Assembly (NCBI RefSeq): GCF_025149785.1
Contig: NZ_CP102277.1
Coordinates: 620,001-684,000, forward strand
Direction of reading: 5' to 3'
Length of the DNA: 64,000 nucleotides
Source of the DNA: Coprococcus comes ATCC 27758
Lineage (GTDB): Bacteria > Bacillota > Clostridia > Lachnospirales > Lachnospiraceae
Part shown: positions 10,578 to 25,383 of the stretch, piece by piece
Layout: each line of letters begins with the position of its first letter
Numbering within the stretch: the stretch's first letter is position 1
Notes under the pieces: generated by a model
Database searches by the model: none
What the model was told of the DNA's origin: nothing
The model's input: only the letters and a program-made list of their open reading frames with translations
Made by a program: the position numbers and the translations under genes

Positions 10578-10620
10578 CAGACTGTGAAGATTTATTTGCA
10601 GTCTGTTTTTCCTTTTTTAT
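10578..10620 (+). terminator. Intrinsic terminator after ung
   Basis: CAGACTG (10578-10584) pairs with CAGTCTG (10599-10605), followed by TTTTTCCTTTTTT. It closes the hisH-hisF-ung unit. Confidence 0.8.
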
Positions 10621-10680
10621 TTCATAGGAACTTCCTATGAAACAAAAGGCACTACGTGTCGGAGATGCACATTCTTTTTG
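10618..10680. repeat. Dispersed structured intergenic repeat, copy A
   Basis: About 55 bases nearly match 62816-62886 (copy B). A palindromic hairpin TTCATAGGAAcTTCCTATGAA (read as two arms) is followed by AAACAAAAGGCACTACGTGT, a small GTGT/GCAC hairpin and TTCTTTTT. Arms in the two copies differ by compensatory changes (C-G here, T-A there). Both copies lie directly after the terminator of an upstream gene. Confidence 0.65.
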
Positions 10681-10696
10681 TTACTGTTCACAGTAC

Positions 10697-12005
10697 AATG
10701 TCATTTAGTTAACGTTTAATCAGGAAGTGAATTCTTACAGAACAAATTACAGATGAGCCTTAGTGGAACCGTTTTACAGATATGTTTACGATTTACTCAT
10801 AAAGGAAAGCATGACAAGAAGACAGATTGCAAATCTGCCTCAAAACGGATTATAATGATGCAAGTAGCCTTGCCCATATTTCCTGTTTCACGTATTCGGG
10901 TTTATACGCATGGAAATTACTCAACCCAATGGTATATTTCAGTTTCCTAAATGAGGATTCAATAGACCATCTGGCATTGTACAAGGTTTTGATACGTTCC
11001 ACAGGGAATTCATCACGTGGCAGATTGGTCACGATGCACTCGTATGTAGAAGTGCTGATAGGGAAGCGTAGAATACGGAAGGACAGCTCATATGTATCAT
11101 AACTTCCATATTCAATGTAATCGAAAGCAGCTGACTGATCAACAAAGCGTATGTAACCTTCTGTGTGGATGTCTGCCAAAATTTTTTTCGAATGGCTCCG
11201 GACCAGTATGACGCTGACATTAATATCGAAGGATTCCGCATCTGGAAAATTAAAATTGCCGACCAGTCCTTTGGAATGGATATCCTTGGTACGGAACAGG
11301 AAATACTGTCTCTGTTCCACAACATGTGCCATGTTATTATAAGAGCAATAGCCGCGGTCACCGATATAGACATTTTTTATTCCATCCAAAACATCGTGCC
11401 GGGCAACAGTAGTAGTCTGGTGATGAGAAAGCCGGAGTGCTGAAAAAAGTGCAGGTAGAGCCATCGGCAGCCAGGAAACGGTAATGCGAATCCATAAAGG
11501 AAGCGGGCGGCAATTCCATGGAAGTGGAATTAAAGTGCCGGAATACAGCTTCCAGCGCATCAGGTTTAAGCTTTGCGCGCTGCTGGCTGAGAGCAGAAGC
11601 GGTTGGTATGGAAGAATCCAGTCCCCAGAAATCAAGCATTTCAACCCTGGTGGAAGATGAGCCTTGTGAAACGAGAAAGGAAATAAGTTTCTGGGCAGGG
11701 ATTTTTTTGCTTCTCTTGAAATCGGAATCGGGATGGACAGCATACTGTGAAATATCAGAAACAATGTGTTCCACAGAAGAAAAAAACAGTTCTTTGATTT
11801 GTTGATGGATCATGATCATGTGCCTCCTTGAGAAAGTGATATACCACTAATTCAAGGGCCGCTCTCGCTGCCTCAACAAATTTATCAGTAGCGAGAGCGG
11901 CCGCACATTTTGCACCCTATGTCAACCCTTTGGGTAGCTTTTTTGAAAAAATTTGGGTTAGACCCACAATTAGGGGCTAACCCTGTAACTTAACTAAATG
12001 ACATT
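10697..12005 (-). mobile_element. IS4-type insertion sequence, copy 1, transposase-defective
   Basis: A 1.3 kb element ending in inverted repeats AATGTCATTTAGTTAA (10697-10712) and its complement (11990-12005). It contains a minus-strand DDE transposase broken into two frames, and at its upstream end a strong hairpin (11861-11900, GCCGCTCTCGCT arms) that could block read-through transcription from outside. A second copy, 98% alike by eye, spans 13243-14183 plus 24962-25328. Outside both ends of this copy lies TGAACAGTAAC or TGAACAGTTAC, exactly six bases from the end of the inverted repeat. Confidence 0.88.
10850..11819 (-). pseudogene. IS4-family transposase, frameshifted (copy 1)
   Basis: The N-terminal frame (11358-11819, 153 residues) starts at an ATG after AAGGAGG and reaches the first catalytic Asp in LAADGSTCTFF. 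The frame then breaks near 11420, and the rest continues in another frame down to 10850, carrying the second Asp in YIGDRGYCSYN and the IS4 signature Y-(2)-R-(3)-E-(6)-K as YNARWSIESSFRKLK. The spacing between the two Asp is shorter than in IS4 relatives I know, so a deletion rather than programmed frameshifting is likely. The C-terminus beyond ARLLASL also ends early. It should encode no active enzyme. Confidence 0.85.
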
Positions 12006-12035
12006 GGGTACTGAACAGTTACGGATAAAAATGGG

Positions 12036-12065
12036 GGGCTGTCGCATTAGCTAATGCGACAGCCC
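12036..12065 (-). terminator. Terminator of the D-amino acid transaminase gene
   Basis: A 30-base perfect palindrome (GGGCTGTCGCATTAG and its complement). On the minus strand it is followed by CCCATTTTTAT, so it best serves the minus-strand gene ending at 12076. On the plus strand the T content after it is poor. Confidence 0.8.
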
Positions 12066-12075
12066 TTCTGATCAT

Positions 12076-12918
12076 TTACATGGTCTCATTTTCAAATTTT
12101 TCTGTATACTTTTTCTGGATCAAATCCACTAACTCCGGTGCCTTTCCTCCGATCGGGGTGCCGTTCATCTCGCAGACCGGGGAGCAGAATTTTGTGGAGC
12201 TGGAGACGATGATCTCGTCGGCATCCATCAGCTCTGCCATGGTAAAAGGTGTCTCGTCGACGATGATCCCGTTATCCTTGCAGATCTGGATGATGTGCAT
12301 TCTTGTGATTCCCGGTAAAATATAGTGGTCTGCCGGGTGGGTCTTAAATACGCCGTCCTTGATGATGGAAACGTTGCTGTGGGCACACTCGGTGACGATA
12401 TCACCGCGGTGGAAGACGCACTCGCCGCATCCGAGAGACTCCGCTTTCTCTGCCGCCATGACGTTGACGAGAAGGTTTAATGTCTTGATATTGCAGTGGA
12501 GGAAACGGGTGTCTTCCATGTCTGTAAGTTTCAGACGTTTGCTGGAGTCAGCCGATTTCCCAGGCTTCATGAAAATCCAGAGATTCGGCTTTGTGCCTGC
12601 AGCTGGGAACTGGTGCTGACGGATGCCGGTTCCCCGGGTCATCTGCCAGTAGATGAAGATATCCTTATCGTCCATTTTTGCCAGCATATCGTAGAGGATC
12701 GCCGCAAGCTCGTCCTTTGTGTAAGGGATATCGATCTTAATGAGTCCGGCGCTGTTGAAGAAACGGTCCAGGTGCTCTTTTAAAGCGAAGATCTTTCCGT
12801 TTCTCGCCAGTGTCGCCTCGTACACACCATCACCGAAATAACATGCGCGGTCGTTCATCGGAACGGTCATCTCTTCCAGAGGTCCGAATTTACCGTTGTA
12901 GTAGCCAAGTGTTTTCAT
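12076..12918 (-). CDS. dat: D-amino acid (D-alanine) aminotransferase, PLP class IV
   Basis: A 280-residue fold-type IV transaminase interconverting D-alanine plus 2-oxoglutarate with pyruvate plus D-glutamate, supplying D-amino acids for peptidoglycan. The PLP Lys is in CNIKTLNLL at residue 145; RGTGIRQHQFP near 95-105 closely matches the carboxylate-binding RGTSPRAHQFP of Bacillus D-amino acid transaminase and separates it from branched-chain IlvE; NDRACYFGDGVYE and ITRMHII also fit. A clear AGGAGG precedes the ATG. A 16-base palindrome CGAAAAAATTTTTTCG lies in its leader (12940-12955). The gene sits between two copies of the same IS in the same orientation. Confidence 0.88.
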   Translation of the reverse strand: MKTLGYYNGKFGPLEEMTVPMNDRACYFGDGVYEATLARNGKIFALKEHLDRFFNSAGLIKIDIPYTKDELAAILYDMLAKMDDKDIFIYWQMTRGTGIRQHQFPAAGTKPNLWIFMKPGKSADSSKRLKLTDMEDTRFLHCNIKTLNLLVNVMAAEKAESLGCGECVFHRGDIVTECAHSNVSIIKDGVFKTHPADHYILPGITRMHIIQICKDNGIIVDETPFTMAELMDADEIIVSSSTKFCSPVCEMNGTPIGGKAPELVDLIQKKYTEKFENETM

Positions 12919-12939
12919 TTACATTTCCTCCTGAATTTA

Positions 12940-12955
12940 CGAAAAAATTTTTTCG
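12940..12955 (-). promoter_or_regulatory. AT-rich palindrome in the dat leader
   Basis: CGAAAAAATTTTTTCG is a perfect 16-base palindrome about 10 bases upstream of the dat ribosome site. It may be an operator or a leader hairpin. No protein can be assigned. Confidence 0.35.
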
Positions 12956-13116
12956 GATATAACTGAAATATTCTATCGCTATCATAGCATGGAACAGGAG
13001 GAAAGTAAAGGAAATAGGAAGGATTTTAGCTAATGTTTTTGGACATATTGTATAAAAGGTCCTATATTTTCCCATTGTCATATGTAAAAATTTTCTGTAT
13101 AATATAGAATAATTAT

Positions 13117-13241
13117 AACTGTTCAGTAGGTCTGCGCATTTACTGCGCTGACCGTAAGAAAAATTAGGCTGGAAGGCAAAAATCCTATCGGAGCAGCTGA
13201 TTTGGAATGGATTTTTGCGCGTAATTGTGAGGGTACTGAAC
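13117..13241. repeat. Small palindromic repeat-like element next to IS copy 2
   Basis: A 125-base stretch opening with AACTGTTCAGTA and closing with GGGTACTGAAC, an inverted pair. Inside, GCAAAAATCC (13176-13185) and GGATTTTTGC form a perfect 10-bp inverted repeat. It is non-coding. IS copy 2 begins two bases after its right end. The same TGTTCA/TGAACA motif borders the other IS ends, so this looks like a member of a dispersed palindromic family used as an IS target. Confidence 0.5.
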
Positions 13242-13399
13242 CAATGTCATTTAGTTAACGTTTAATAGGGAGCGAATTCTTACAGAACAAATTACAGATG
13301 GGCCTTAGTGGAACAGTTTTACAGATATGTTTACGATTTACTCATGAAGGAAAGCACGACAAAAAGACAGATTGCAAATCTGCCTCAAAACGGATTATA

Positions 13400-14183
13400 A
13401 TGATGCAAGTAGCCTTGCCCATATTTCCTGTTTCACGTATTCGGGTTTATATGCATGGAAATTACTCAGCCCAATGGTATATTTCAGTTTCCTGAATGAG
13501 GATTCAATGTTTCATCTGGCATTGTACAAGGTTTTGATACGTTCCACAGGGAATTCATCACGTGGCAGATTGGTCACGATGCACTCGTATGTAGAAGTGC
13601 TGATAGGGAAGCGTAGAATACGGAAGGACAGCTCATATGTATCATAACTTCCATATTCAATGTAATCGAAAGCAGCTGACTGATCAACAAAGCGTATGTA
13701 ACCTTCTGTGTGGATGTCTGCCAAAATTTTTTTCGAATGGCTCCGGACCAGTATGACGCTGACATTAATATCGAAGGATTCCGCATCTGGAAAATTAAAA
13801 TTGCCGACCAGTCCTTTGGAATGGATATCCTTGGTACGGAACAGGAAATACTGTCCCTGTTCCACAACATGTGCCATGTTATTATAAGAGCAATAGCCGC
13901 GGTCACCGATATAGACATTTTTTATTCCATCCAAAACATCGTGCCGGGCAACAGTAGTAGTCTGGTGATGAGAAAGCCGGAGTGCTGAAAAAAGTGCAGG
14001 TAGAGCCATCGGCAGCCAGGAAACGGTAATGCGAATCCATAAAGGAAGCGGGCGGCAATTCCATGGAAGTGGAATTAAAGTGCCGGAATACAGCTTCCAG
14101 CGCATCAGGTTTAAGCTTTGCGCGCTGCTGGCTGAGAGCAGAAGCGGTTGGTATGGAAGAATCCAGTCCCCAGAAATCAAGCA
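13400..14183 (-). pseudogene. IS4-family transposase, copy 2, C-terminal part
   Basis: Same frameshifted reading as copy 1, including the internal break near 13965 and GDRGYCSYN. It has one extra lesion: where copy 1 reads YNARWSIESSF, copy 2 has TGA in place of the Trp codon, in the middle of the IS4 Y-R-E-K signature. The N-terminal quarter lies beyond the inserted element at 24962-25142. It is inactive on three counts. Confidence 0.87.
14182..14183. other. attL core dinucleotide of the mobilizable element
   Basis: CA shared between IS sequence on the left and element sequence (GTTCATGGCTAATT) on the right. Large serine recombinases exchange strands at a central dinucleotide, which becomes duplicated at both ends; the CA at 24960-24961 is the partner. 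Confidence 0.8.
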
Positions 14184-14262
14184 GTTCATGGCTAATTAAA
14201 GGGAACAAAAAGAAAGGGAATGCACAATCCAGACGGTATCAGCGGCAGGCTACAAGAATAAA

Positions 14263-14291
14263 TTGTGATTTCACAAGATTGGTGTTATAAT
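14263..14291 (+). promoter_or_regulatory. Left-end promoter with overlapping palindromic operator
   Basis: TTGTGA (14263-14268), 17 bases, TATAAT (14286-14291). The palindrome TTGTGATTTCACAA (14263-14276) covers the -35. A GC-rich hairpin CCGGGGC/GCCCCGG at 14308-14325 follows in the leader. It should drive the XRE-tnpV pair, and the palindrome suggests autorepression. Confidence 0.65.
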
Positions 14292-14354
14292 AAGAGAAAA
14301 GTTCCTGCCGGGGCAACCGCCCCGGTGGTATGGATAGAAAGGCAGGAAAACAAT

Positions 14355-14627
14355 ATGCACATCAGCTATAAACCACTCTGGCACACACTGTTAGAGCGTG
14401 ATATGAGAAAAGAGGATTTAAGGCTTGCTGCTGGTATGACAACAAATATGATTGCCAACATGAGCAAAGAGGGAAAGCACATCAGCATGGATACATTAGC
14501 CCGTATCTGTGAAACTCTGAATTGTGAGATTACTGATGTGATTGAGTTAGTACCAGACGAGCCTGCTTCCACAGGAGGTAAGGAACATGAGCGAATTGAA
14601 ACCAAGAATAACGGAAAACGGAATTGA
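14355..14627 (+). CDS. Cro/C1-type HTH regulator of the mobile element
   Basis: A 90-residue regulator with a helix-turn-helix at about residues 8-62 (LLERDMRKEDLRLAAGMTTN, later MDTLARICETLNCEITDVIEL), resembling the YozG-like group carried on many Firmicutes integrative elements. Upstream in-frame ATG codons exist (14265), but the first residues from there are not family-like, and the ATG at 14355 after GGCAGGAAAA gives the proper N-terminus MHISYKPLW. It overlaps tnpV by 41 bases and lies behind a promoter with a palindrome over the -35. Confidence 0.85.
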   Translation: MHISYKPLWHTLLERDMRKEDLRLAAGMTTNMIANMSKEGKHISMDTLARICETLNCEITDVIELVPDEPASTGGKEHERIETKNNGKRN

Positions 14628-14964
14628 TTATATCCTTGTCGGAGATTACTACATTCCAGGCTTGAAACTGCCGGAGGAACACCGCCCTATCGGAAAGTAC
14701 GGACGAATGCACCGGGAATATTTAAGAGAAGTCCACCCAGCCAGATTGAATACATTGATACTGACCGGAGAATTGTTGACATATCTTGCAGACCTGAATG
14801 AACAGGCACAAAAACGGTTAGACACTATCATGGAGCAGATGAAAGCTACCGAGGGCGTGACAGAGGAATTGAAGTGTACCCGACAAATGGAATGGGTGCA
14901 GCGTTGCAATAACATTCACAACAGGGCAGAAGAAATTGTTTTGTATGAGATGATTTATTCATAA
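14587..14964 (+). CDS. tnpV: TnpV family transposon-encoded protein
   Basis: A 125-residue protein of the TnpV family, first named on clostridial Tn4451-type elements. Conserved features visible are the N-terminal YILVGDYYIPGLKLPEE, the IGKYGRMHREYLREVHP block and the C-terminal acidic helix. Biochemical function is unknown for the family; it is a dependable marker of serine-recombinase mobilizable elements. GGAGG seven bases upstream fixes the ATG, which lies inside the previous gene. Confidence 0.88.
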   Translation: MSELKPRITENGIDYILVGDYYIPGLKLPEEHRPIGKYGRMHREYLREVHPARLNTLILTGELLTYLADLNEQAQKRLDTIMEQMKATEGVTEELKCTRQMEWVQRCNNIHNRAEEIVLYEMIYS

Positions 14965-14993
14965 CGGGAGCAATTAAATCGGAGGTATATAAG

Positions 14994-15956
14994 ATGATTG
15001 AAATTGTATTTGGTGAAAGTGCCTGTGGAAGTTTGAAAATTGCCCAAACTTACGGCAAGGGAAAGTATAGAGGAAGTGCTGTTTCAATATTTATGAGGCA
15101 CGAAGACGGGAGTGTTCCATCTTCAGATGAAATGAAAAAGGCACAGCTTCAAGCACAGGAACAAGAACGCATTGCTTGGGAGAATGCTATTCCATTGGGA
15201 GGCAAGAGCAGTGATGTTTATTGTTTTGATATGGCTCTTAGTGTGGGAGATATTTCTGATAATGGAATTGGCGAACAGCGGAAAAATATTTTCAAGAAAA
15301 TGCTGTCTGTCTGCTTTGTAGAGGATTTAGATTATCAGGTTGAAGAAAAAATACAGAAAATTAAAACTACATTGACCTCAGTGATTGAACGATATGTAGC
15401 TGGGGAAGAAATTCGCATTTGGTATAGCTATAATCCAGATGAGCTTTGTGGTATGTATTGGCTTATGAAACAACTTCAACCATTAAACTGCCAGACAACA
15501 ATTTATTTGGTTAAGTTACCTACATGGGAATATGGAAAAGAAAATACTATGACATCCAAAATAGCATGGGGCGAGGTCTCTCCTGGCGAATGGGGAAACT
15601 ATATAACTCTACAAGAGAAAGCTAATCCTGTATTTCTTTCAGCTTGTACTATGAAATGGAATCAACTTCAAAATGAAAATGCACCTTTGCGTGCAATGTT
15701 AAATGGTAAATTGCAAAGCGTTTCAGAAGATATATATGATAGTTTCATTCTTCGTGAAATTGCGGAACAGCCAGAGCAATTCAAAATGGCTATTGTCATA
15801 GGTAATGTTTTAGGAAAATATCAACTTGGAATTAGTGATGTATGGATTTCCAATCGCATTGATAAAATGCTTGAAGATGGTGTGTTGGAAATTATACAGG
15901 ACGCACCAAAGGGAGAAACAAATTATCGCCGAATATTAAGAAAACGAATGAAATAA
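14994..15956 (+). CDS. DUF1835/DUF3658 domain protein (probable cargo)
   Basis: A 320-residue soluble protein. The N-terminus MIEIVFGESACGSLKIAQ and the later CFDMALSVGDISDNGIGEQR near 76-95 match the DUF1835 pattern; the C-terminal ISDVWISNRIDKMLEDGVLE near 281-301 followed by YRRILRKR matches DUF3658. The function of these domains is not established. Its codon use is AT-richer than the backbone genes of the element, and it lies between the regulator/tnpV pair and a terminator, the usual place for cargo. GGAGG at 14981-14985 supports the ATG. Family assignment is from memory of motifs. Confidence 0.7.
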   Translation: MIEIVFGESACGSLKIAQTYGKGKYRGSAVSIFMRHEDGSVPSSDEMKKAQLQAQEQERIAWENAIPLGGKSSDVYCFDMALSVGDISDNGIGEQRKNIFKKMLSVCFVEDLDYQVEEKIQKIKTTLTSVIERYVAGEEIRIWYSYNPDELCGMYWLMKQLQPLNCQTTIYLVKLPTWEYGKENTMTSKIAWGEVSPGEWGNYITLQEKANPVFLSACTMKWNQLQNENAPLRAMLNGKLQSVSEDIYDSFILREIAEQPEQFKMAIVIGNVLGKYQLGISDVWISNRIDKMLEDGVLEIIQDAPKGETNYRRILRKRMK

Positions 15957-15968
15957 TAACCACAGCAC

Positions 15969-16014
15969 AAACCGCTGCTACATGGAATCCAACAAACCAT
16001 GCAACAGCGGTTTT
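15969..16014. terminator. Bidirectional terminator between cargo gene and XRE gene
   Basis: AAACCGCTG (15969-15977) pairs with CAGCGGTTT (16005-16013), extended by CATGG/CCATG inside, followed by TTTT. The converging genes end at 15956 and 16018. Confidence 0.75.
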
Positions 16015-16017
16015 CCT

Positions 16018-16824
16018 TTACCGTTTTTTCCTCTGGCTGATAGGCGTTCCCATTTTCTTTGATTTTTTGAGAATACGAATGAACCAGCGAAATTCTTCTT
16101 CTGACAGGTTTTTATAGTTGATACCAAGCTGCTTGCAGTAAAGGATAACCAGTTTTTCATCTCGACTGCCCTTGAAATTTTCGACCGCTTCCAGATTTTC
16201 TTTCAGTTCATCGGCAACGGTAGTTTGGGGCGCACTCTCGCTGTCCTTTTTGTGGAATTCCCGAATATCCCGGATAATCAGGTTGAGGTCATCCAGAACC
16301 ATGTGACTGAAATACTCATCATCACTGATATGTGCGGCTTGCAGCACCTTCAAATGCGGGTCATCTTCGCCGGGGCGATACCGTTCAATAATTTCATGCC
16401 GGACGGTATCAACAAGGGAGTTGAGATTTTGGATTTGCATGGTGGCAATCCCGTCCACATAAATCTCAATGTCCGCAAGAAACTTGATAAAGTCCTTATG
16501 GGTGGCAAGTTCGCAGAGCAGACGGTTGTTAATCCGACCGCTTTTCAGCAGTGCCACCATCTCATCGTTCAAATGCAGCTCCGTCAGTGGCGTGTTGATC
16601 TGCTCCCTGTTCTCTGTCCGGCACAGCAGATAATCGACGGAAACCCCATAGAAGTCTGCCAGCGTGATAAGGTTGCCATGATTGATTTCCTTATAATCCT
16701 CTTTTTCATAACTGCCAAGGGCTGATTTAGAAATGCCCGTCAGCTTTGATAGTTCTTCCAGATTTAAGCCTTTGTCTTTGCGGAGTTCCCAAAGGCGTTC
16801 CTGTATGCTTGTTGCAACTTTCAT
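16018..16824 (-). CDS. XRE-family regulator with long C-terminal domain
   Basis: A 268-residue protein. The HTH lies at about residues 6-62 (LWELRKDKGLNLEELSKLTG, then SKSALGSYEKEDYKEINHGN). The C-terminal 200 residues are charged and helical and not recognised by me; such large XRE proteins are commonly the master repressors of Tn916- and CTn-like elements. The open frame extends upstream to 17181 but that part is low quality; AAAGGAGCG lies 9 bases before the ATG at 16824. The promoter has an inverted repeat over its spacer, so it is probably self-controlled. It runs opposite to all other genes of the element. Confidence 0.85.
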   Translation of the reverse strand: MKVATSIQERLWELRKDKGLNLEELSKLTGISKSALGSYEKEDYKEINHGNLITLADFYGVSVDYLLCRTENREQINTPLTELHLNDEMVALLKSGRINNRLLCELATHKDFIKFLADIEIYVDGIATMQIQNLNSLVDTVRHEIIERYRPGEDDPHLKVLQAAHISDDEYFSHMVLDDLNLIIRDIREFHKKDSESAPQTTVADELKENLEAVENFKGSRDEKLVILYCKQLGINYKNLSEEEFRWFIRILKKSKKMGTPISQRKKR

Positions 16825-16870
16825 GGGCGCACGCTCCTTTCCGGTGGTTTTATTTCTGCCGTTTAACTGG

Positions 16871-16900
16871 ATTATATCACACTTTCCGCAATCGTGGAAA
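16871..16900 (-). promoter_or_regulatory. Promoter and inverted repeat of the minus-strand XRE gene
   Basis: On the minus strand TTTCCA (16895-16900), an 18-base spacer and TATAAT (16871-16876). The inverted repeat TTTCC-N8-GGAAA (16883-16900) overlaps it and may be an operator. Confidence 0.55.
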
Positions 16901-17306
16901 TTTCTGATTTTCCCCCTGATTCCTACTTTGTGGATATACGGCACAGGGCACAAAAATGTTCTATGATACAGGTAGTTCATCGATGGATTATTCCAATCGA
17001 ATGACCAGCCTGTGTGGGATATGCTTCCCCGGCGATGTAGCGCCATGACTTTTGGCAGGGATATGGAGGAACCCTGACCGAAACGAGCGTACCAAAGGGA
17101 GCGATACGCCGCTGTGAGATTCAGGGGAGGAACGACACCGGGGAGAACTGGCGAACTGACACCGAAATGATACCGAAACACGACAATTTGATAGGGAGAT
17201 AGTCTACCCTATCGCTGAGACTTCGGGAGATTTTAAGCGGCTCTATGGCTGTAATTTTGCCGAAAATCGCCCCGAAACCATACACGAAAACGGGAGGAAA
17301 CGTAAC
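16901..17306. other. Regulatory intergenic region of the element, no gene seen
   Basis: About 400 bases between divergent genes. It holds the hairpin GATAGGG (17190-17196) with CCCTATC (17207-17213), and GGGAGGAAACG just before 17307. No credible coding frame. It probably contains the rightward promoter of the replication/mobilization genes, but I cannot point to clear -35 and -10 boxes. Confidence 0.5.
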
Positions 17307-17495
17307 ATGCCGAGAATGAGCAAAAAGCGGAAGCATGAGCTTTCCTTTTACCTCAATGACCGGGGGCGTGTCACTTACAACGAATTATGCCGGAAATGCC
17401 AGCATGGGTGCAAGCAGAGCTTCCGGGCGGTTGTGATTGACTGCCCCCGTTATTTATCCAAACGAGCAAAGAAAAAGGAGGAACACACCGAATGA
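17307..17495 (+). CDS. Small cysteine-rich protein of the mobile element
   Basis: A 62-residue basic protein. NELCRKCQHGCKQSFRAVVI contains C-x2-C-x3-C and a further Cys lies in VIDCPRYLSKR, which could bind a metal. It is found on many Lachnospiraceae elements ahead of replication genes, but has no known function that I can name. GGGAGGAAACGTAAC precedes the ATG, and its end overlaps the next start by four bases (ATGA), showing translational coupling to the RepA-like gene. Confidence 0.75.
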   Translation: MPRMSKKRKHELSFYLNDRGRVTYNELCRKCQHGCKQSFRAVVIDCPRYLSKRAKKKEEHTE

Positions 17496-17833
17496 ATTTT
17501 GAATTTATGACGATAGACACACCATTGCCGCCCTGTATGCCATTTCCCAGAGCGTTGACAGGATTTCCAGTCAGCAGCACCGCAAAGGTCATGTACTGCC
17601 GGATGTTGGACGCTATGCTTTTCAGAGGGCAGGCGGACGAGAACGGGATTCTTTTTGTCTGCTTCCCTATCACAGCCATTGCCGCAGTCCTGTCCCGCAG
17701 CCTCATGACGGTCAAGCGTTCTTTGAATGAACTGGAAACCGCCGGACTTATCATGCGGGTGCGTCAGGGCGTGGGAGAACCGAACAGGATTTATGTGCTG
17801 ATACCGGGAAAGGAGGGCGCTACCCTTGCCTGA
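17492..17833 (+). CDS. RepA N-terminal-like replication initiator, short form
   Basis: A 113-residue protein resembling the winged-helix N-terminal domain of RepA_N initiators: FPRALTGFPVSSTAKVMYC near 18-36, then FPITAIAAVLSRSLMTVKRS, the recognition helix, and GLIMRVRQGVGEPNRIYVL, the wing. Full RepA_N proteins are about 250-350 residues, so this is the DNA-binding domain alone, as common on integrative elements. It probably binds the element origin or acts as a regulator. It overlaps both neighbours. Confidence 0.75.
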   Translation: MNFEFMTIDTPLPPCMPFPRALTGFPVSSTAKVMYCRMLDAMLFRGQADENGILFVCFPITAIAAVLSRSLMTVKRSLNELETAGLIMRVRQGVGEPNRIYVLIPGKEGATLA

Positions 17834-18122
17834 TACCTCAAAGCTGGGAAAGCTCAACCGGGAGTTGGAGAAAAGCGAAAAGAAACTGCGGAAAGCCATC
17901 AATGATGAAAAGGCATTGCAGCACCAGTTGAAGCAGCTTACCCGAAAGGAACGGACGCACCGGCTCTGTACTCGTGGCGGTATGCTGGAAAGTTTTCTGC
18001 AAGAGCCGGAACGCCTGACGGACGATGATGTCATGCTGTTGCTGAAACTCATTTTTCACAGGCAGGACACGCAAGATATATTGAAAAAACTGCTGGAACG
18101 GGAGAAGCCGGAAACCCCTTAG
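17826..18122 (+). CDS. DUF3847 family protein
   Basis: A 98-residue hydrophilic protein with a strongly predicted coiled coil at about residues 5-47 (KLNRELEKSEKKLRKAINDE onward) and the THRLCTRGGMLESFL motif typical of DUF3847 proteins on mobilizable elements. The start is TTG at 17826, 8 bases after AAAGGAGGG and overlapping the previous gene. The candidate oriT lies immediately after its stop codon, so a role as mobilization accessory protein is plausible but unproven. Confidence 0.78.
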   Translation: MPDTSKLGKLNRELEKSEKKLRKAINDEKALQHQLKQLTRKERTHRLCTRGGMLESFLQEPERLTDDDVMLLLKLIFHRQDTQDILKKLLEREKPETP

Positions 18123-18165
18123 TTTACTAAGGGCGCAATTATACACCACCCAGAGGTTGGTGCAT
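18121..18165 (-). other. Candidate oriT (MOBQ type) of the mobilizable element
   Basis: On the minus strand the order is CACCAACC, a three-base loop, GGGTGGTG (arms 18144-18151 and 18155-18162), then TATAATTGCGCCCTTA. The last part matches the RSF1010/MOBQ nick region TAAGTGCGCCCT, and the placement of an inverted repeat a few bases 5' of it is the same as in RSF1010. A MobA/MobL relaxase gene lies about 1 kb downstream. The nick would be expected within TTGCGC/CCT. Confidence 0.65.
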
Positions 18166-18369
18166 TGCGTTCTCCGAAGGCTCCTTGCAGGAGGGCTGTG
18201 ATTTTCCGCAGCCACGGTCTGCTCCAAATCAAACAGGGGACGCTACACTTCCCCTGCGCTGGCTGCCGCCAGCTACCCTTTTGTGGACTTGCCATCTGGG
18301 GACACCTTGCGTTGCAAGCTGTTCCCAGCCGATAAGTTTCATAAAATATAATGCAAATGGAAAGCTAAC
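18166..18369. other. Non-coding GC-rich region between oriT and regulator
   Basis: Some 200 bases without a believable gene. It contains several short inverted repeats (for example CTCCTTGCAGGAG at 18180-18192). It may belong to the oriT region. Confidence 0.4.
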
Positions 18370-18422
18370 TTGACATAAAAGAACTATGTGATATAATGGA
18401 AGCATGGAAAGTTAACTTTCCA
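18358..18422 (+). promoter_or_regulatory. Promoter with two repressor-like operators
   Basis: TTGACA (18370-18375), 16 bases, TATAAT (18392-18397). Directly downstream is the perfect 18-base palindrome TGGAAAGTTAACTTTCCA (18405-18422), and TGGAAAGCTAACTT (18358-18371), a near copy of one side, overlaps the -35. The small XRE protein made from this promoter is the obvious repressor. Confidence 0.8.
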
Positions 18423-18439
18423 TAAGAGAGGAGGATGAC

Positions 18440-18637
18440 ATGAAAAATCGCCTGGAAGAATTACGAAAGCAACGAGGCATAAAGCAAGAAGATTTAGCAA
18501 ATGCATTGGAAGTATCACGACAGACCATCGGCTCTTTGGAAAACGGACGCTATAACCCATCTATTCAGTTGGCATTTAAGATTGCCAGATATTTCAACAT
18601 GAGTATTGAAGAAATTTTTATTTACGAGGAGGATTGA
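18440..18637 (+). CDS. Small XRE repressor (YgzD-like)
   Basis: A 65-residue protein consisting only of a helix-turn-helix domain (LEELRKQRGIKQEDLANALE, then SRQTIGSLENGRYNPS and IARYFNMSIEEIF). This compact form is the usual partner of small DUF2178-like membrane proteins. GAGAGGAGG precedes the ATG. Two operator-like palindromes flank its promoter, so autorepression is likely. The next gene begins two bases after its stop codon. Confidence 0.88.
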   Translation: MKNRLEELRKQRGIKQEDLANALEVSRQTIGSLENGRYNPSIQLAFKIARYFNMSIEEIFIYEED

Positions 18638-18639
18638 TT

Positions 18640-19056
18640 ATGAAAAAAAGGTTGTTGATTTTAATGACAGTTACAGGAATGATTATTCTACTGGGAGGAT
18701 TGCTAACATACGGTTTGGGAGTACATGAAATAATACCTGTGCCACGTCCCGACTTAATAGTAGTAGGTACATCTCTCATTGGAATTTTGCTGATTGTATC
18801 TGGTGTGTGCGACTTGTTCGTTAAGAAAACCAAAGAAATGGAAATAGAGGAAAATGACGAGAGAAATATTTCGCTTAGTAATGCTGCTATGGCAAGTGGC
18901 TTCAAGGTAATGAATGTTACGATTGCTGTTTCTATTTTTGCTTTGATTTTCACCGGATATATGACAGTAGTCCCATGTTTCACTATTATTGGGGCTTATG
19001 CTATTGGACAAATTGTATTTATTGTGCGACTTTGGTACTTGCACAAAACTATGTAA
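18640..19056 (+). CDS. DUF2178-like membrane protein
   Basis: A 138-residue protein with four hydrophobic segments, at about 4-24, 36-57, 88-107 and 112-131. The cytoplasmic loop carries EIEENDERNISLSNAAMASG, the NDER motif typical of this small family. It is coupled to the XRE repressor before it (ATG eight bases after GAGGAGG that overlaps that gene's end). The function is unknown; XRE/DUF2178 pairs recur as small cargo or regulatory cassettes in Firmicutes. Confidence 0.75.
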   Translation: MKKRLLILMTVTGMIILLGGLLTYGLGVHEIIPVPRPDLIVVGTSLIGILLIVSGVCDLFVKKTKEMEIEENDERNISLSNAAMASGFKVMNVTIAVSIFALIFTGYMTVVPCFTIIGAYAIGQIVFIVRLWYLHKTM

Positions 19057-19159
19057 ATGTATTACTAAATACCCGCCGCCCCCAGCGGCACAACAAGCAG
19101 GAAATCTGAAAAGGTATCCTGCTTTTTCTATGTCCAAAAACGGAAAGGAGGAACACAAA

Positions 19160-20734
19160 ATGCCCTGTCCACACAACGAAATCTCTATTGTGCAGCGCAG
19201 CCACCGCCAGTCTGCGGTTGCCGCCGCTGCTTACCAGAGCGGCGAAAAGCTGTTCTGTGAATATGACCAGGAAGTAAAACACTACCCGGAAAAGCGTGGT
19301 ATCGTCCACAATGAAATCCTGCTCCCGGCAAACGCTCCCCTGGAGTACACAGACCGCAACACCCTCTGGAACGCTGCCGAAGCTGTTGAGAAGCAATGGA
19401 ACTCCCAGCTTGCAAGGCGGTGGGTGCTTTCCATTCCCAGAGAGATACCGCCCGACCAGTACGCCGCCCTTGTACGGGATTTCTGCCGCCAGCAGTTTGT
19501 TTCCAAAGGAATGTGCGTGGATTTTGCCATCCATGACAAAGGGGACGGAAACCCACACGCCCATGTCATGCTGACCATGCGGGCAATGGATGAGCGTGGG
19601 AAATGGCTTCCCAAGAGCCGCAAGGTCTATGAACTTGATAAGAACGGGGAACGAATCAAGCTCCCGTCCGGCAGGTGGAAAAGCCACAAGGAAGATACGG
19701 TTGACTGGAACGACCGCAAATATGGCGAAATCTGGCGGCATGAATGGGAGGTCATCCAAAACCGCTATCTGGAAGCCAACAACCGCCCGGAACGAGTAGA
19801 TCTCCGTTCTTACGAAAGACAGGGGCTTGATATTATCCCTACCGTCCATGAAGGGGCTGCTGTCCGGCAGATGGAAAAGCGTGGGATTCAGACGAACATC
19901 GGCAACCTGAACCGAGAAATCAAAGCCGCCAATAGTTTGATGAAGTCCATCCGGCAGCTTATTAAAAATCTCAAAGGCTGGATTGCGGAGCTTAGCGAAA
20001 AGCGGAATGAACTGCTTGCCCAAAAAGCTGCGGAGGAAGCGGTCTTTCTTCCCAATCTGCTGATGAAGTATATGGAGATACGAAAGGCAGAACGGAGCAG
20101 CTGGACACGGGCGGGACAAAGCCGGGGGACTTCCAAAGACTTAAAGGCAGTCAGCGAAGCCCTGTCCTATCTCCAGAGAAAGGGACTTTCCACCGTGGAG
20201 GATTTGGAAAACTTTATAGAAACGTCCGGGAAATCTGCCGCCGACTACCGAAAGCAGATGAAGCCAAAGGAAACCCGCAGCAACGTGATTGACGCTATCC
20301 TTGCCGCCCGGACGGACTGTAAGGAATGTAAGCCCGTTTATGAGAAATACCAGAAGATATTTTTCAAGAAAACTAAGGAAAAATTCAAGCTGGAACACCC
20401 GGAGGTTGCCCGGTTTGAGAAAGCCAGTGCCTACCTTGCCAAGCACCCGGACGATAAGGACAGCACGAAAAAGGAGCTTTTGCAGGAACAGGCGAAGCTT
20501 GTGGACGAAATCGCAGACTTGAAAGTACCGTTGACCGAGGTGCAGGAAGATTTGAAGAAGCTGTGGGACATCCGCTACTGGGTACGGAAAGCCACACCCG
20601 GCACAGAGGAAAGCAAAGAGCCGCCCAAGAAGCAGCCCCTCAAAGAAGTCTTGCAGGATAAGGCTGACGAGAAGAGAGCACAGAAAAACGCCCCGGCGCA
20701 GACGAAACACAAACAACAGGATATGGAACTTTAA
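19160..20734 (+). CDS. mobA: MobA/MobL family relaxase (MOBQ)
   Basis: A 524-residue relaxase that would nick oriT and lead DNA transfer. The N-terminus has SIVQRSHRQSAVAAAAYQSG with the catalytic Tyr region, and the three-His metal motif is HDKGDGNPHAHVMLTMR near residues 127-143, as in MOBQ proteins. The second half is coiled coil and charged, ending in a Lys-rich tail; no helicase or primase domain is fused. The open frame extends upstream to 18989, but AAAGGAGGAACACAAA before the ATG at 19160 and family starts (MPCPHNEISIVQRS) decide it. It probably acts at the oriT candidate near 18.14 kb. Confidence 0.92.
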   Translation: MPCPHNEISIVQRSHRQSAVAAAAYQSGEKLFCEYDQEVKHYPEKRGIVHNEILLPANAPLEYTDRNTLWNAAEAVEKQWNSQLARRWVLSIPREIPPDQYAALVRDFCRQQFVSKGMCVDFAIHDKGDGNPHAHVMLTMRAMDERGKWLPKSRKVYELDKNGERIKLPSGRWKSHKEDTVDWNDRKYGEIWRHEWEVIQNRYLEANNRPERVDLRSYERQGLDIIPTVHEGAAVRQMEKRGIQTNIGNLNREIKAANSLMKSIRQLIKNLKGWIAELSEKRNELLAQKAAEEAVFLPNLLMKYMEIRKAERSSWTRAGQSRGTSKDLKAVSEALSYLQRKGLSTVEDLENFIETSGKSAADYRKQMKPKETRSNVIDAILAARTDCKECKPVYEKYQKIFFKKTKEKFKLEHPEVARFEKASAYLAKHPDDKDSTKKELLQEQAKLVDEIADLKVPLTEVQEDLKKLWDIRYWVRKATPGTEESKEPPKKQPLKEVLQDKADEKRAQKNAPAQTKHKQQDMEL

Positions 20735-20800
20735 CAGGCACTTGCCATTTTCAGATTGAGAATGATAAGTGCCTTTTCTTTTTTACAAGGAGGAATTGAT

Positions 20801-21445
20801 TTGAATGTATTTGAAGCTGTGAAGCAGTCCGTTACGACAAGACAGGCTGCGGAGCATTACGGAATCCGGGTAAACAGAAACGGGATGGCTTGCTGCCCGT
20901 TCCACAACGATAAGACCCCCAGCATGAAGCTGGACAAGCGTTTCCACTGCTTCGGATGTGGTGCAGATGGGGATGTGATTGATTTTGTAGCTGCCCTGTA
21001 CGGGCTGGGGAAAAAGGAAGCCGCCGCACAGTTGGCGAGTGACTTCGGGCTTGCCTATGAGGACTGGAAGCCACCGGGCAGGGCAAGGAAGCCCAAGCCC
21101 CGGCAGAAATCCCCGGAAGAACAGTTCCGGGAAGCAAAGGCACATTGCTTCCGTGTCCTTGCCGATTATCTACACCTCTTACGGGTATGGAAAACCGACT
21201 ATGCCCCGCACTCCCCGGAGGAAGCGTTTCATCCCCGGTTCGTGGAAGCCTTGCAGAAGCAAGCCCATGTGGAATATCTGCTGGATGTGCTGCTGTTTGG
21301 GGATACGGAGGAAATCGCTTCACTGATTACGGAACATGGAAAGGATGTGATACAGCTTGAACAGCGAATGGCAGAGCTTGCCGCCGCAGACGCAGCAAGA
21401 ACTAAAAAACACCATGAACGCCATGCAGCCGCCCCAGAGCGTTGA
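20801..21445 (+). CDS. CHC2 zinc-finger primase-like protein
   Basis: A 214-residue protein whose N-terminal 85 residues form a DnaG-type zinc-binding domain: CCPFHNDKTPSMK near 28-40 and FHCFGCGADGDVIDF near 47-61 give the Cys-His-Cys-Cys ligands. There is no TOPRIM catalytic domain, so alone it cannot prime; it may recruit or work with the VapE-type protein that follows. The frame opens earlier (20756), but TTG at 20801 with AAGGAGG seven bases before is the only start with a good ribosome site. The C-terminus is basic and His-rich and overlaps the next gene by 89 bases. Confidence 0.85.
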   Translation: MNVFEAVKQSVTTRQAAEHYGIRVNRNGMACCPFHNDKTPSMKLDKRFHCFGCGADGDVIDFVAALYGLGKKEAAAQLASDFGLAYEDWKPPGRARKPKPRQKSPEEQFREAKAHCFRVLADYLHLLRVWKTDYAPHSPEEAFHPRFVEALQKQAHVEYLLDVLLFGDTEEIASLITEHGKDVIQLEQRMAELAAADAARTKKHHERHAAAPER

Positions 21446-22751
21446 GGAAGTAAAGGCAACTCTGGAAACCACCGAGAAAGGCGGTGTCCGCCAGAGCATA
21501 CGGAACTGCCTGACCGTATTCCAGCGTGACCCGGTGCTTGCCGGGGCAATCGCCTATAACATCCTGACCGACCGAAAGGACATCATAAAGCCCATCGGTT
21601 TTCACAGAGAAAGCACAGCCCTGACCGATACAGACATGAAGTATCTGCTTCTCTATCTGGAGGAAACCTACGGGCTGACCAGTGAGAAAAAGATTGAAAC
21701 CGCCATCGGGATTGTGGCGAATGAGAATAAGTACCACCCCATCCGGGATTTTCTGAACAGCCTTGCATGGGACGGGACGGAGCGCATCCGCTTCTGTCTG
21801 CGGCACTTTCTGGGGGCGGATGTGGACGATTACACCTATGAAGCCCTAAAGCTGTTTCTTTTGGGGGCGATTACAAGGGCATTTAAGCCCGGAAGCAAGT
21901 TTGAAATCATGCTGTGTCTGGTAGGCGGTCAGGGGGCTGGCAAGTCCACCTTCTTCCGTCTGCTGGCAGTCCGGGACGAGTGGTTTTCCGATGATTTGCG
22001 GAAGCTGGACGATGATAACGTGTACCGCAAGCTGCAAGGTCACTGGATAATTGAAATGTCGGAAATGATGGCAACCGCCAATGCCAAGAGCATTGAGGAA
22101 ATCAAGTCTTTTCTAAGCCGACAGAAAGAGGTTTATAAGATACCCTATGAAACCCACCCGGCAGACCGTCCCCGTCAGTGCGTGTTCGGCGGTACTTCCA
22201 ACGCCCTTGACTTTCTCCCCCTTGACCGTTCCGGCAACCGCCGATTTATCCCGGTCATGGTGTACCCGGAGCAAGCCGAGGTTCACATTTTGGAGGACGA
22301 AGCCGCTTCCAGAGCCTATATCAGCCAGATGTGGGCGGAAGCAATGGAGATTTACCGAAGCGGCAGGTACAAGCTGTCATTCAGCCCAGCCATGCAGCGG
22401 TATCTCAAAGAACACCAGCGGGATTTTATGCCGGAGGACACCAAAGCCGGGATGATACAGGCTTACCTTGATAAGTACACCGGGGAAACGGTCTGTTCCA
22501 AGCAGCTCTACAAGGAAGCCTTAAATCACACCTTTGACGAGCCGAAGCAATGGGAAATCCGGGAAATCAACGAGATAATGAACCAGTGCATTACCGGGTG
22601 GAACTACTTTTCCAATCCAAGAATGTTTGCGGAATATGGCAGACAAAAGGGCTGGGAGCGTGAAATCCCGGCAACGGACACCGACAACCCGCCCGAAAAA
22701 TCTATGGACGGTTTTGTGGAGGTCACGGAGCAGATGGAGCTTCCATTCTGA
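21357..22751 (+). CDS. VapE/VirE-family replication ATPase
   Basis: A 464-residue protein of the virulence-associated E family, a superfamily 3-like helicase/ATPase used for replication by phage satellites and integrative elements. Walker A is LVGGQGAGKSTFFRLL near 188-203, Walker B-like WIIEMSEMMA near 230, and the sensor region GGTSNALDFLPLDRSGNRRF near 279-298. The TTG at 21357 gives the longest frame and a large overlap with the CHC2 gene; the ATG at 21414 is an alternative. Together with the CHC2 and RepA-like proteins it forms an autonomous replication module. Confidence 0.88.
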   Translation: MNSEWQSLPPQTQQELKNTMNAMQPPQSVEEVKATLETTEKGGVRQSIRNCLTVFQRDPVLAGAIAYNILTDRKDIIKPIGFHRESTALTDTDMKYLLLYLEETYGLTSEKKIETAIGIVANENKYHPIRDFLNSLAWDGTERIRFCLRHFLGADVDDYTYEALKLFLLGAITRAFKPGSKFEIMLCLVGGQGAGKSTFFRLLAVRDEWFSDDLRKLDDDNVYRKLQGHWIIEMSEMMATANAKSIEEIKSFLSRQKEVYKIPYETHPADRPRQCVFGGTSNALDFLPLDRSGNRRFIPVMVYPEQAEVHILEDEAASRAYISQMWAEAMEIYRSGRYKLSFSPAMQRYLKEHQRDFMPEDTKAGMIQAYLDKYTGETVCSKQLYKEALNHTFDEPKQWEIREINEIMNQCITGWNYFSNPRMFAEYGRQKGWEREIPATDTDNPPEKSMDGFVEVTEQMELPF

Positions 22752-22992
22752 AAATGACAGCCCGTTGCCGACTTCGTTGCTATCCCGTTGCCGAGCCGGT
22801 TGCCGGGGAAAAACCCATAACTGCGGGCTTTTCTCCCCTATGACAACCAAAACAACAGAAAAATAAAAGAAAAGTATAAATAGTAACCACCGCCAGATTG
22901 AGATTGTTTGCAAGGTCTTTTGAAGCCCGTTGCCGGACTTCGTTGCCGACACCCTCTGTCTGGCTATTTTCATGTATGGAGGATAACTGCCT
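22752..22992. repeat. CCCGTTGCC-rich direct repeats after vapE
   Basis: GCCCGTTGCCGACTTCGTTGC at 22760-22780 recurs at 22925-22946 with one extra G, and CCCGTTGCCGA occurs again at 22784-22794 and a variant at 22796-22806. A partly paired GGGGAAAA-CCC/GGG-TTTTCTCC hairpin (22806-22841) could terminate vapE transcription. No gene is seen. The spaced short repeats resemble iterons of a replication origin. Confidence 0.5.
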
Positions 22993-23190
22993 ATGGCAAA
23001 AAACAAAACAGAGATTCATGTGACCACTGTATTTGACGGGGAGCTGGACGCCACCGATGTGTTCGTCAGCCTGATTTCCCAGAAATACGGCAAGACAAAT
23101 ACAAAAGAATATCTTGCTAAAAAGAAAGAATTGAAGTATAATGAAGATGAGGTTCAAAAGAGCCGGATACCGTCTGGATTGTGTGGGTAA
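22993..23190 (+). CDS. Small conserved protein preceding the recombinase
   Basis: A 65-residue hydrophilic protein (MAKNKTEIHVTTVFDGELDA..., with VFVSLISQKYG). I recognise the pattern as a short gene often next to serine recombinases in Lachnospiraceae elements, in the place where Tn4451-like elements carry tnpW, but I cannot claim homology. Ribosome site GGAGGATAAC lies upstream. The recombinase ATG follows its stop codon directly, so the two are co-translated. Confidence 0.65.
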   Translation: MAKNKTEIHVTTVFDGELDATDVFVSLISQKYGKTNTKEYLAKKKELKYNEDEVQKSRIPSGLCG

Positions 23191-24861
23191 ATGGCTATGA
23201 TGAACGAAATGGAATACAGAACAATCGGTTCGGCACTTGCCGGGGGCTATCGTGCAGCGGTCTATTGCAGACTGTCAAAGGACGATGACCTGCAAGGCGA
23301 AAGTGCCAGTATCGCAAACCAGCGTGATATGCTGGAAAAATACTGCGAAAAGCAGGGATGGGAGGTTGTGGCAGTCTATCAGGACGATGGCTTCACAGGT
23401 CTTAATATGGAGCGTCCTGATTTACAGAGAATGTTGAGATCCATTGAGCGCAGGCAAATCAACCTTGTTATCACGAAAGACCTCAGCCGACTGGGGCGTA
23501 ACTATCTGCAAACCGGGCATTTGATTGAGGACTTTTTCCCAAGAAACGGGGTGCGCTATATCGCCATGAATGACGGTATCGACACCTTACGGGATAACAA
23601 CGACATTGCCCCGTTCAAGAATATCCTGAACGAGATGTACAGCAAGGATATTTCCAAGAAAGTCCATTCCTCTTATCTTCTGAAAGCGCAGAAAGGACAG
23701 TTTACCGGGTGTCTTGCCCCGTTTGGGTATCGGAAAGACCCGGAGGACAAAAACCATCTGCTCATTGACGAGGAAACCGCCCCGATTGTGCGGCTGATTT
23801 TCGGATATGCCCTAAACGGTCATGGTCCGAACTATATCCGCAGACGGCTGGAGGAAGAAAAAATCCCCTGCCCCACATGGTGGAACCGGGAACGGGGGCT
23901 TCGCAATACCCGCACCAAATGGGAAAAGAAAGACCCGGAAAACGGGCGGTATATGTGGGACTTCTCCGTTATCAAAGACCTTTTGATGAATCCCGTCTAC
24001 ACCGGGGCGATTGCTTCCCAGAAAAAAGACTACCGCTTCAAAATCGGCACGATTGGGGAAAAGAAACCGGAGGACTGGGTTGTGGTTGAGGGACAGCACG
24101 AACCGCTGATTGACCGCATGAGCTTTGATATTGTGCAGAACAAGCTGAAATCCCGCCAGCGTCCGGGGCAGACCAATGAAATCAGCCTGTTTGCCGGACT
24201 GATAAAATGCGGCGAGTGTGGGAAGTCGCTGACGATACGCTACACAAACGCAAAACATCCCCAGCGGATTTACTCCTGCAAGACCTACAATGCCTTTGGA
24301 AAGAACCACTGCACCCAGCACCGGATTGATTATGACACCCTTTACAGTCATGTGCTGCGGAAAATCCGGGAATGTGCCAGAGCTGCCCTGATGGACGGAG
24401 AAGCGGTTGCCGACCGCCTGACCAATACCTGTGAAGCCGAGCAGCGGGAACAGCGGGAAGCAATGGAACGCTCCCTTACAAGGGACGAGGAACGGATTGA
24501 GGTTCTGGACAAAATGGTAATGCGGCTTTATGAGGATATGATTGCAGGGCGTATCAGTGAGCAGAACTTCAACACCATGCTGGAAAAGACGCAGACCGAG
24601 CAGACGGAGCTTAAAACAAAAGTGTCCGAGGGCAGAAAGCGGCTGTCCGATGAAGTCCAGCTTGCCAATGATGCAAAACAATGGGTGGAAGCCATTCAGG
24701 AATACGCCAACATCACAGAGCTGGATGCAGCCACCCTTAACCGCTTAATCAAAGAAATCGTCGTGCATGAGCGCATTGACGAAGATAAAACAAGACACAT
24801 TTCTATCGAAATTCATTTTAATCTCAAACCCATCCCGGAGGTGGAACAGGTCACTGCCTGA
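23191..24861 (+). CDS. Large serine recombinase (TnpX/TndX-like integrase)
   Basis: A 556-residue site-specific recombinase that excises and integrates the element. The catalytic N-terminal domain (about 15-165) has AAVYCRLSKDDD with the nucleophilic Ser near 29, then SASIANQRDML and TKDLSRLGRNY. The recombinase domain follows (YGLxPFGYRKDP-type region near 180, here LAPFGYRKDPED), then a zinc ribbon with C-x2-C in KCGECGKSL and two later Cys near 345-385, a coiled-coil stretch near 400-490, and a DUF4368-like tail. All hallmark residues are present. It sits 100 bases from the right end of the element, as usual. The inferred exchange dinucleotide is CA/TG. Confidence 0.94.
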   Translation: MAMMNEMEYRTIGSALAGGYRAAVYCRLSKDDDLQGESASIANQRDMLEKYCEKQGWEVVAVYQDDGFTGLNMERPDLQRMLRSIERRQINLVITKDLSRLGRNYLQTGHLIEDFFPRNGVRYIAMNDGIDTLRDNNDIAPFKNILNEMYSKDISKKVHSSYLLKAQKGQFTGCLAPFGYRKDPEDKNHLLIDEETAPIVRLIFGYALNGHGPNYIRRRLEEEKIPCPTWWNRERGLRNTRTKWEKKDPENGRYMWDFSVIKDLLMNPVYTGAIASQKKDYRFKIGTIGEKKPEDWVVVEGQHEPLIDRMSFDIVQNKLKSRQRPGQTNEISLFAGLIKCGECGKSLTIRYTNAKHPQRIYSCKTYNAFGKNHCTQHRIDYDTLYSHVLRKIRECARAALMDGEAVADRLTNTCEAEQREQREAMERSLTRDEERIEVLDKMVMRLYEDMIAGRISEQNFNTMLEKTQTEQTELKTKVSEGRKRLSDEVQLANDAKQWVEAIQEYANITELDAATLNRLIKEIVVHERIDEDKTRHISIEIHFNLKPIPEVEQVTA

Positions 24862-24959
24862 CCTGTCCCGCCTGGATGGTTCTCTTAAAAACACCATATA
24901 GATTTTTGTACGCCGCCGCCCGCCATCGAGCAGAATTTTACACCTAATTGGGGATAAAA

Positions 24960-24961
24960 CA
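24960..24961. other. attR core dinucleotide of the mobilizable element
   Basis: CA between element sequence (GGGGATAAAA) and IS sequence (TTTCAACCCTGG). With attL it allows reconstruction of attB (AAGCATTTC) and attP (AAACAGTTC). Confidence 0.8.
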
Positions 24962-25142
24962 TTTCAACCCTGGTGGAAGATGAGCCTTGTGAAACGAGAA
25001 AGGAAATAAGTTTCTGGGCAGGGATTTTTTTGCTTCTCTTGAAATCGGAATCGGGATGGACAGCATACTGTGAAATATCAGAAACAATGTGTTCCACAGA
25101 AGAAAAAAACAGTTCTTTGATTTGTTGATGAATCATGATCAT
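24962..25142 (-). pseudogene. IS4-family transposase, copy 2, N-terminal part
   Basis: An ATG after AAGGAGG starts MIMIHQQIKELFFSSVEHIV, identical to copy 1, through STRVEM, where the inserted element interrupts it. Translation would run on into element DNA for 24 more codons (to 24885) and stop. It belongs with the piece at 13400-14183. Confidence 0.88.
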
Positions 25143-25328
25143 GTGCCTCCTTGAGAAAGTGATATACCACTAATTCAAGGGCCGCTCTCGCTACCTCAAC
25201 AAATTTATCAGTAGCGAGAGCGGCCGCACATTTTGCACCCTATGTCAACCCTTTGGGTAGCTTTTTTGAAAAAATTTGGGTTAGACCCACAATTAGGGGC
25301 TAACCCTGTAACTTAACTAAATGACATT
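24962..25328 (-). mobile_element. IS4-type insertion sequence, copy 2, right part
   Basis: The upstream end of the second IS copy: the first 61 codons of the transposase, the GCCGCTCTCGCT hairpin (25183-25226), and the terminal inverted repeat ending ATGACATT at 25328. It continues copy 1 sequence base for base from the point where 14183 stopped. TGAACAGTAAC lies six bases outside the end, as at copy 1. Confidence 0.93.
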
Positions 25329-25383
25329 GGGGAGTGAACAGTAACTTCTTTTTTACTTTGCATGCCGGAATCAATGGAAACAG

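Follow-up and report, generated by a model that had tools for sequence, protein, structure and literature searches.

A maff2-targeting mobilizable element of Coprococcus comes, very probably integrated at a weak pseudo-attB site in a dead IS4-type transposase gene

Integrative and mobilizable elements (IMEs) residing in the maff2 gene have already been published, and what we describe here is not a new kind of system. In streptococci, serine-integrase IMEs lie inside maff2 at two positions and fall into two integrase families (PMC5357655, PMC5704250), and for IME_Rho_tet of gut Firmicutes 116 of 256 matched integration sites are in MAFF2 genes (PMC12904643). Large serine recombinases carrying DUF4368 are likewise termed 'multi-targeting', with relaxed target choice (PMC10083194). 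The stretch analysed here, which we call the window, comprises 64,000 nucleotides of Coprococcus comes ATCC 27758 (NZ_CP102277.1, positions 620,001 to 684,000) and carries on its forward strand a 10,778-bp mobilizable element (14184-24961). Judged by sequence, the habitual target of this element is the maff2 gene of conjugative elements, and the window copy is very probably an IME of a maff2-targeting serine recombinase that here sits at a weak pseudo-attB in a dead IS4-type transposase gene. The element itself was not found described in the literature, supplements lying outside that search; FirmiData (PMC9092696) might hold it.

The window contains two direct, degenerate copies of an IS4-family-like insertion sequence (IS), both on the reverse strand, the second of which is split by the element (one CA counted in its length). 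Copy 1 (10697-12005) holds the unoccupied site, and copy 2 persists as a left piece (13243-14183; 13243-14188 by blastn) and a right piece (24962-25328). Self-comparison of the window places the left junction after 14183 (AAATCAAGCA/GTTCATGGC, the slash marking the joint) and the right junction after 24961 (GATAAAACA/TTTCAACCC); copy 1 carries AAGCATTTCAACC at 11634, giving AAG-CA-TTTC as the empty site. Rejoined there, copy 2 reads like copy 1 across the joint, with a single CA remaining and nothing else gained or lost. Its right arm agrees with copy 1 at 368 of 370 bases, and blastn against copy 1 gives 98.2% identity over 947 bases (one gap) for the left piece and 98.9% over 375 bases for the right. 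As target and element differ both to the left of the CA (G/A) and to its right (T/G), the crossover falls within CA. On the forward strand, the attB equivalent is AAGCATTTC (11634-11642, CA at 11637-11638), attL is AAGCAGTTC (14179-14187, CA at 14182-14183), attR is AAACATTTC (24957-24965, CA at 24960-24961) and the predicted attP is AAACAGTTC. A first-pass annotation of the window had proposed this insertion into copy 2, with copy 1 as a base-exact empty site, and had written the same four attachment sequences; self-comparison confirms the former and the latter are correct as written. It had also called the transposase gene dead, correctly, since both window copies are without about amino acids 141-182 of a 447-residue relative and change frame there. 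Copy 1 matches DDE_Tnp_1, with the IS4 model below cut-off, and in an IS relative from another genome (G067) the transposase frame is open over 471 codons. Within the 3.37-Mb genome the IS occurs only as the two window copies, plus five short matches of about 46-72 bases.

Relatives of the recombinase were taken as the best 80 of 338 loci in a genome collection, a sample weighted to close relatives, together with matches in 22 of 397 family genomes, 8 viral-contig loci and 2 of the 3 plasmid records with a match; phage records gave none. Loci whose right end resembled the window's and whose flank was sufficiently long yielded 92 nonredundant right junctions (distinct over 120 bases), of which 64 come from the genome collection, 24 from whole genomes and 4 from plasmid or viral records. 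The left-end motif is present in the fetched DNA of 47 of these, which supply the left junctions; the window's own left junction stands outside the 47. Excluded were 56%-identical recombinases with non-matching right ends (L117, L122, L124) and loci with short flanks (L088, L093, L112). Three of the eight viral-contig loci from the protein scan (L143, L144, L145) have a matching right end, and neither the exact right end nor the joint was found in viral contigs. Among 391 class genomes the exact right end occurs in two, the window genome and G544, the latter being the only one of the 38 genomes of its family with the recombinase.

With Maff2 scored where at least 9 of 18 residues are as in LMAGGGVALIGTTLIPLL, the right flank is the Maff2 protein, (K)Q-LMAGGG..., at 87 of the 92 junctions, and the position within maff2 is identical at all 87, across divergent alleles and many genera. 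The remaining five are the window (L133), L041, L092, L144 and L056. Four of them (the window, L041, L092 and L144) are non-maff2 contexts, in which the recombinases are about 84-100% identical; an empty site is known for the window alone. The element in G319 (L130) is identical to the window's at 10,778 of 10,778 bases (100.000%) and that in G191 (L128) at 99.991%, both lying in maff2, and the Pfam Maff2 model is matched by the unjoined left fragments of both genomes, at 107.7 bits (G191) and 106.2 bits (G319). G341 (L126/L127) has three copies in tandem maff2 genes, all at the usual position; its middle unit is a hybrid, with left and right maff2 sides from two different genes, as would be expected from recombination between element copies. 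One annotated copy of the element is flanked by VirD4-like and VirB6-like conjugation genes. The window genome has one detected Maff2 gene of its own, encoding 73 amino acids, adjoining TrbL_2, PrgI and CD1115-type VirD4 genes. Since this gene is intact and its site (ATCAAACAGCTGATGG) uninterrupted among conjugation genes, the window copy is off target: the maff2 insertion that characterises such serine IMEs is found across the element family and not at this locus.

Most maff2 insertions do not reveal exactly where the crossover lies; the stray copy does. The base after CA is G at 87 of 92 junctions, and since CAG is therefore common to most maff2 targets and the element, the exchange cannot be placed within it there. 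On the element side CA is present at 92/92 right junctions, and on the target side at 46 of the 47 left junctions (CT once, at L041) as well as at the window's own. At two further loci (L052 and L063) the target reads AAGCA/ACTT, with codon CAA and thus A instead of G after CA, and these leave only CA, as the window does, so that CA is bracketed on both sides in three cases. The CA/TG core given in the first-pass annotation agrees with these counts. The crossover dinucleotide of TnpX is GA. That annotation had set its core against GA in both TnpX and TndX, which holds for TndX, the Tn5397 targets in B. subtilis having GA as central dinucleotide (PMC4430133); for TnpX, a '2-bp target site' is stated (PMC3158075).

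The recombinase would normally insert the element into maff2 at codons K-Q (AAR-CA/G), leaving a 2-bp CA overlap, and in the window genome would have integrated instead at the weak pseudo-attB inside the dead IS4-type transposase gene. Judging by what is known of this recombinase class, the same enzyme is expected to excise the element as a circle with joint GGGGATAAAACAGTTCATGG, in longer form GGGGATAAAACA/GTTCATGGCTAATTA (GGGGATAAAACA/GTTCATGGC at the crossover), which could then be transferred via the MobQ relaxase through the conjugation machinery of another element. The nine bases AAACAGTTC, once proposed as the mark of such a circle, are not diagnostic: in 13 of 47 left junctions the sequence preceding the element ends in AAACA, and the 9-mer also forms at ordinary left junctions of maff2 alleles with Lys codon AAA, so that demonstrating a circle would require the longer joint GGGGATAAAACAGTTCATGGCTAATTA. 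A 21-base joint-like pattern is found in 4 of 394 family genomes, three times as maff2 left junctions (L169, L170, L172) and once as the terminus of a 56%-identical element adjacent to the studied one (G222, L171). In G222 this neighbour, which ends in ATAAAACA, directly abuts the left end of the studied element (L131:7440).

The stray sites, with positions counted from the core (the L041 core being aligned as such despite its CT), share a few bases of the maff2 consensus. All four off-target right halves (window, L041, L092, L144) have C+9, G+11 and G+12, for which uniform base frequencies give a chance of about 1e-4. The left halves of three stray sites, those of the window, L041 and L092, retain A-3, A-2, G-9 and C-14 (about 9e-5). 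C9 and G11 are mirrored between the halves of the stray sites; maff2 itself is without the left G11 mirror. These mirrored positions fit a dimer reading inverted half-sites, as a post hoc pattern in four sites, and contacts at +9 to +12 are compatible with the published model in which the zinc ribbon of serine integrases lies closer to the core in attB than in attP (PMC3783163). On that reading the recombinase would recognise the stray site by a pair of inverted half-sites (G-9, A-3 and A-2; C+9, G+11 and G+12). We offer only tentatively, and consider it rather doubtful, the broader idea that this maff2 specialist mainly reads a small inverted half-site code (G-9, A-3, A-2, then CA, then C+9, G+11, G+12) and not the whole coding sequence, so that the element could move out of its conjugative carrier into chromosomal pseudo-sites, dead IS genes among them, and that even a core mismatch such as the CT of L041 may be tolerated. 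A degenerate maff2 pattern run on the window genome recovers the vacant maff2 at 0 mismatches and the IS site plus six other places at 3; it permitted T at +1 with the window site known and is not independent evidence.

Several results weigh against integration by a maff2 specialist. In the maff2 weight matrix the IS site totals -7.1 (+11.8 from its left half and -19 from its right), against 49.7 for the genome's own maff2, and two positions within the 64-kb window score better. Among the 3.09 million positions on both strands of the 80 fetched loci, 173 equal or exceed the IS site in score, 116 of them att/maff2 sites and 57 others. In view of this weak score, similarity to maff2 alone was dropped as the predictor of the IS site. 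A 25-base half-site pattern, made after the stray sites had been seen, gives 13 matches in the genome, among them the IS site, and misses the genome's own maff2. At L041, in Evtepia, the target side of the left junction is CT and not CA; relatives of the target gene that could provide an independent empty site were found in 0 of 291 genomes, an uninformative negative. At L056 a maff2 piece is rearranged and inverted and the left end is altered, for which a CA core offers no simple explanation. The right-junction set was itself conditioned on a match to the element's right end, which favours similar ends. Finally, no circle joint was recognised among the matches in the 394 family genomes, and viral contigs gave 0.

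The low maff2 score of the IS site, the four non-maff2 contexts among 92 junctions and membership of the DUF4368 clade, for which relaxed target choice is reported (PMC10083194), would suit a low-specificity, transposase-like enzyme for which the IS is one of many random sites, the excess of maff2 arising from hitch-hiking on conjugative elements. Hitch-hiking without target choice should however give varied positions in the conjugative element, whereas one base position in maff2 is used at 87/92 junctions, across divergent alleles and many genera, and again by the three tandem copies of G341, so we regard this explanation as unlikely. Less probable still is arrival by homologous recombination or rearrangement and not through the recombinase: the two IS copies do form direct repeats, and rearrangement of the region is evident from the same-genus genome G232, whose corresponding locus lacks the block of copy 1, aminotransferase gene and copy 2, but the element ends exactly as in maff2 insertions (AAAACA and GTTCATGGC), a single CA being the only scar, and IS homology breaks off no more than a few bases from those ends. 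Least credible is the first-pass suggestion that dead IS copies are a preferred, recurring and harmless landing site, since, plausible as harmlessness is in a dead gene and although copy 1 retains the same empty sequence about 2.5 kb away, that copy is unoccupied, only the window's among the 92 junction loci has IS-like DNA of at least 100 bases at the junction, and IS matches occur in 5 of 150 family genomes including its own, the others at 68-80% identity. Off-target integration by the maff2-directed recombinase provides an attB/attP pair with a CA core for an enzyme present in many gut Firmicutes genera, and shows that an IME normally bound to conjugative elements is able to integrate elsewhere.

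The boundaries of the element follow from self-comparison and from the copies in G319 and G191, and its genes, on the forward strand unless stated, were assigned by profile matches. From the left end they encode an HTH_26 regulator (14265-14627; VanU model below cut-off), TnpV (PF14198, 14587-14964, 140.4 bits), a DUF1835/DUF3658 cargo protein (14994-15956), an HTH_3 regulator on the reverse strand (16018-17181) whose true start is probably downstream of the listed GTG, an HTH protein (17492-17833; HTH_DeoR, with RepA_N below cut-off), a DUF3847 protein (17826-18122) and a small HTH_3 regulator (18440-18637). A 140-codon open reading frame (ORF) with no family match in the profile searches (18634-19056) precedes a MobQ relaxase of the MobA/MobL type (18989-20734; NF041496, 239 bits against a cut-off of 200), for which the true start is probably downstream of the listed TTG. 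Then come a CHC2 zinc-finger primase-like protein (20756-21445), a VapE-like protein (21357-22751) and, directly before the recombinase, a 65-codon ORF likewise without family match (22993-23190). The large serine recombinase (23191-24861, 556 amino acids) has resolvase, Recombinase, Zn ribbon and DUF4368 domains; its best match among solved sequences is TnpX chain 2mhc (catalytic domain, 111 residues). The longest ORF is the relaxase, at 581 amino acids, and the element ends 100 bp after the recombinase stop. No mating-pore family (VirB4 etc.) matched any of the 13 element ORFs searched, other small ORFs lying outside that search, and no resistance gene was found among the ORFs searched. With its own integrase, defined ends and a relaxase without a mating-pore match among those 13 ORFs, the predicted anatomy is that of an IME, in keeping with the first-pass description of a mobilizable element with a large serine recombinase. 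The window genome is rich in serine recombinases, 19 places matching this one at 25-100% identity.

Around the IS copies, the block absent from the locus in G232 spans 10609-25333 and comprises copy 1, a class IV aminotransferase gene (12076-12918) and copy 2 with the element. G232 has the aminotransferase gene with an IS piece on another contig, and the arrangement resembles a composite transposon. A short dispersed repeat lies at 10604-10679, with ~30 matches in G232. The motif TAACTGTTCAGTA occurs in opposite orientations on either side of the aminotransferase gene (12009-12021 and 13116-13128), two matches against 0.08 expected with one mismatch allowed.

A second element shares the habitual target. 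In 16 of the 47 left-junction loci (L060:1-1213 and 15 others) another large serine recombinase element (DUF4368; 31% identical over 373 amino acids) is present in the same maff2 and ends about 18-21 bp upstream of the studied element. In L060 its end lies about 90 bp after the recombinase stop, and it may belong to the IME_Rho_tet family.

The window element can be set beside several known systems. The streptococcal IME_ScoC232_maff2_site1 and IMESp2907, of Tn5252-superfamily integrative and conjugative elements, are alike in having a serine integrase, a disrupted maff2 and a relaxase-carrying hitch-hiker, and copies at secondary sites are recorded there as well (PMC5357655, PMC5704250). Compared by description and not by sequence, the present case differs in its gut Clostridia host, its MobQ relaxase and its off-target copy. 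IME_Rho_tet (10,695 bp, R. hominis) likewise has a serine recombinase near its 3' end, a relaxase and a gut Firmicutes host. A tetracycline ribosomal-protection gene is about 640 codons long. IME_Rho_tet carries such a gene and ends 81-90 bp after the recombinase stop, whereas the window element has no ORF of that length and ends at 100 bp; neither hallmark is thus found in it. Tn4451/Tn4453 (TnpX), Tn6104 and Tn5397 (TndX) share a large serine recombinase and a 2-bp crossover (PMC3158075, PMC4430133), Tn4451-type elements have TnpV and MobA/MobL as here, and Tn6104 inside Tn6103 offers a parallel to the studied element as an insertion within a larger conjugative element. The recombinase (against the TnpX catalytic domain alone), TnpV and MobA/MobL all agree with the Tn4451/TnpX family and the GA dinucleotide does not, the window element having a CA core, maff2 as habitual target and no resistance gene among the ORFs searched. 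The DUF4368 multi-targeting recombinases, finally, share DUF4368 on the C-terminal side and several target contexts, but the present enzyme has a strong preference for one gene family, and the worked example in PMC10083194 has a TT core.

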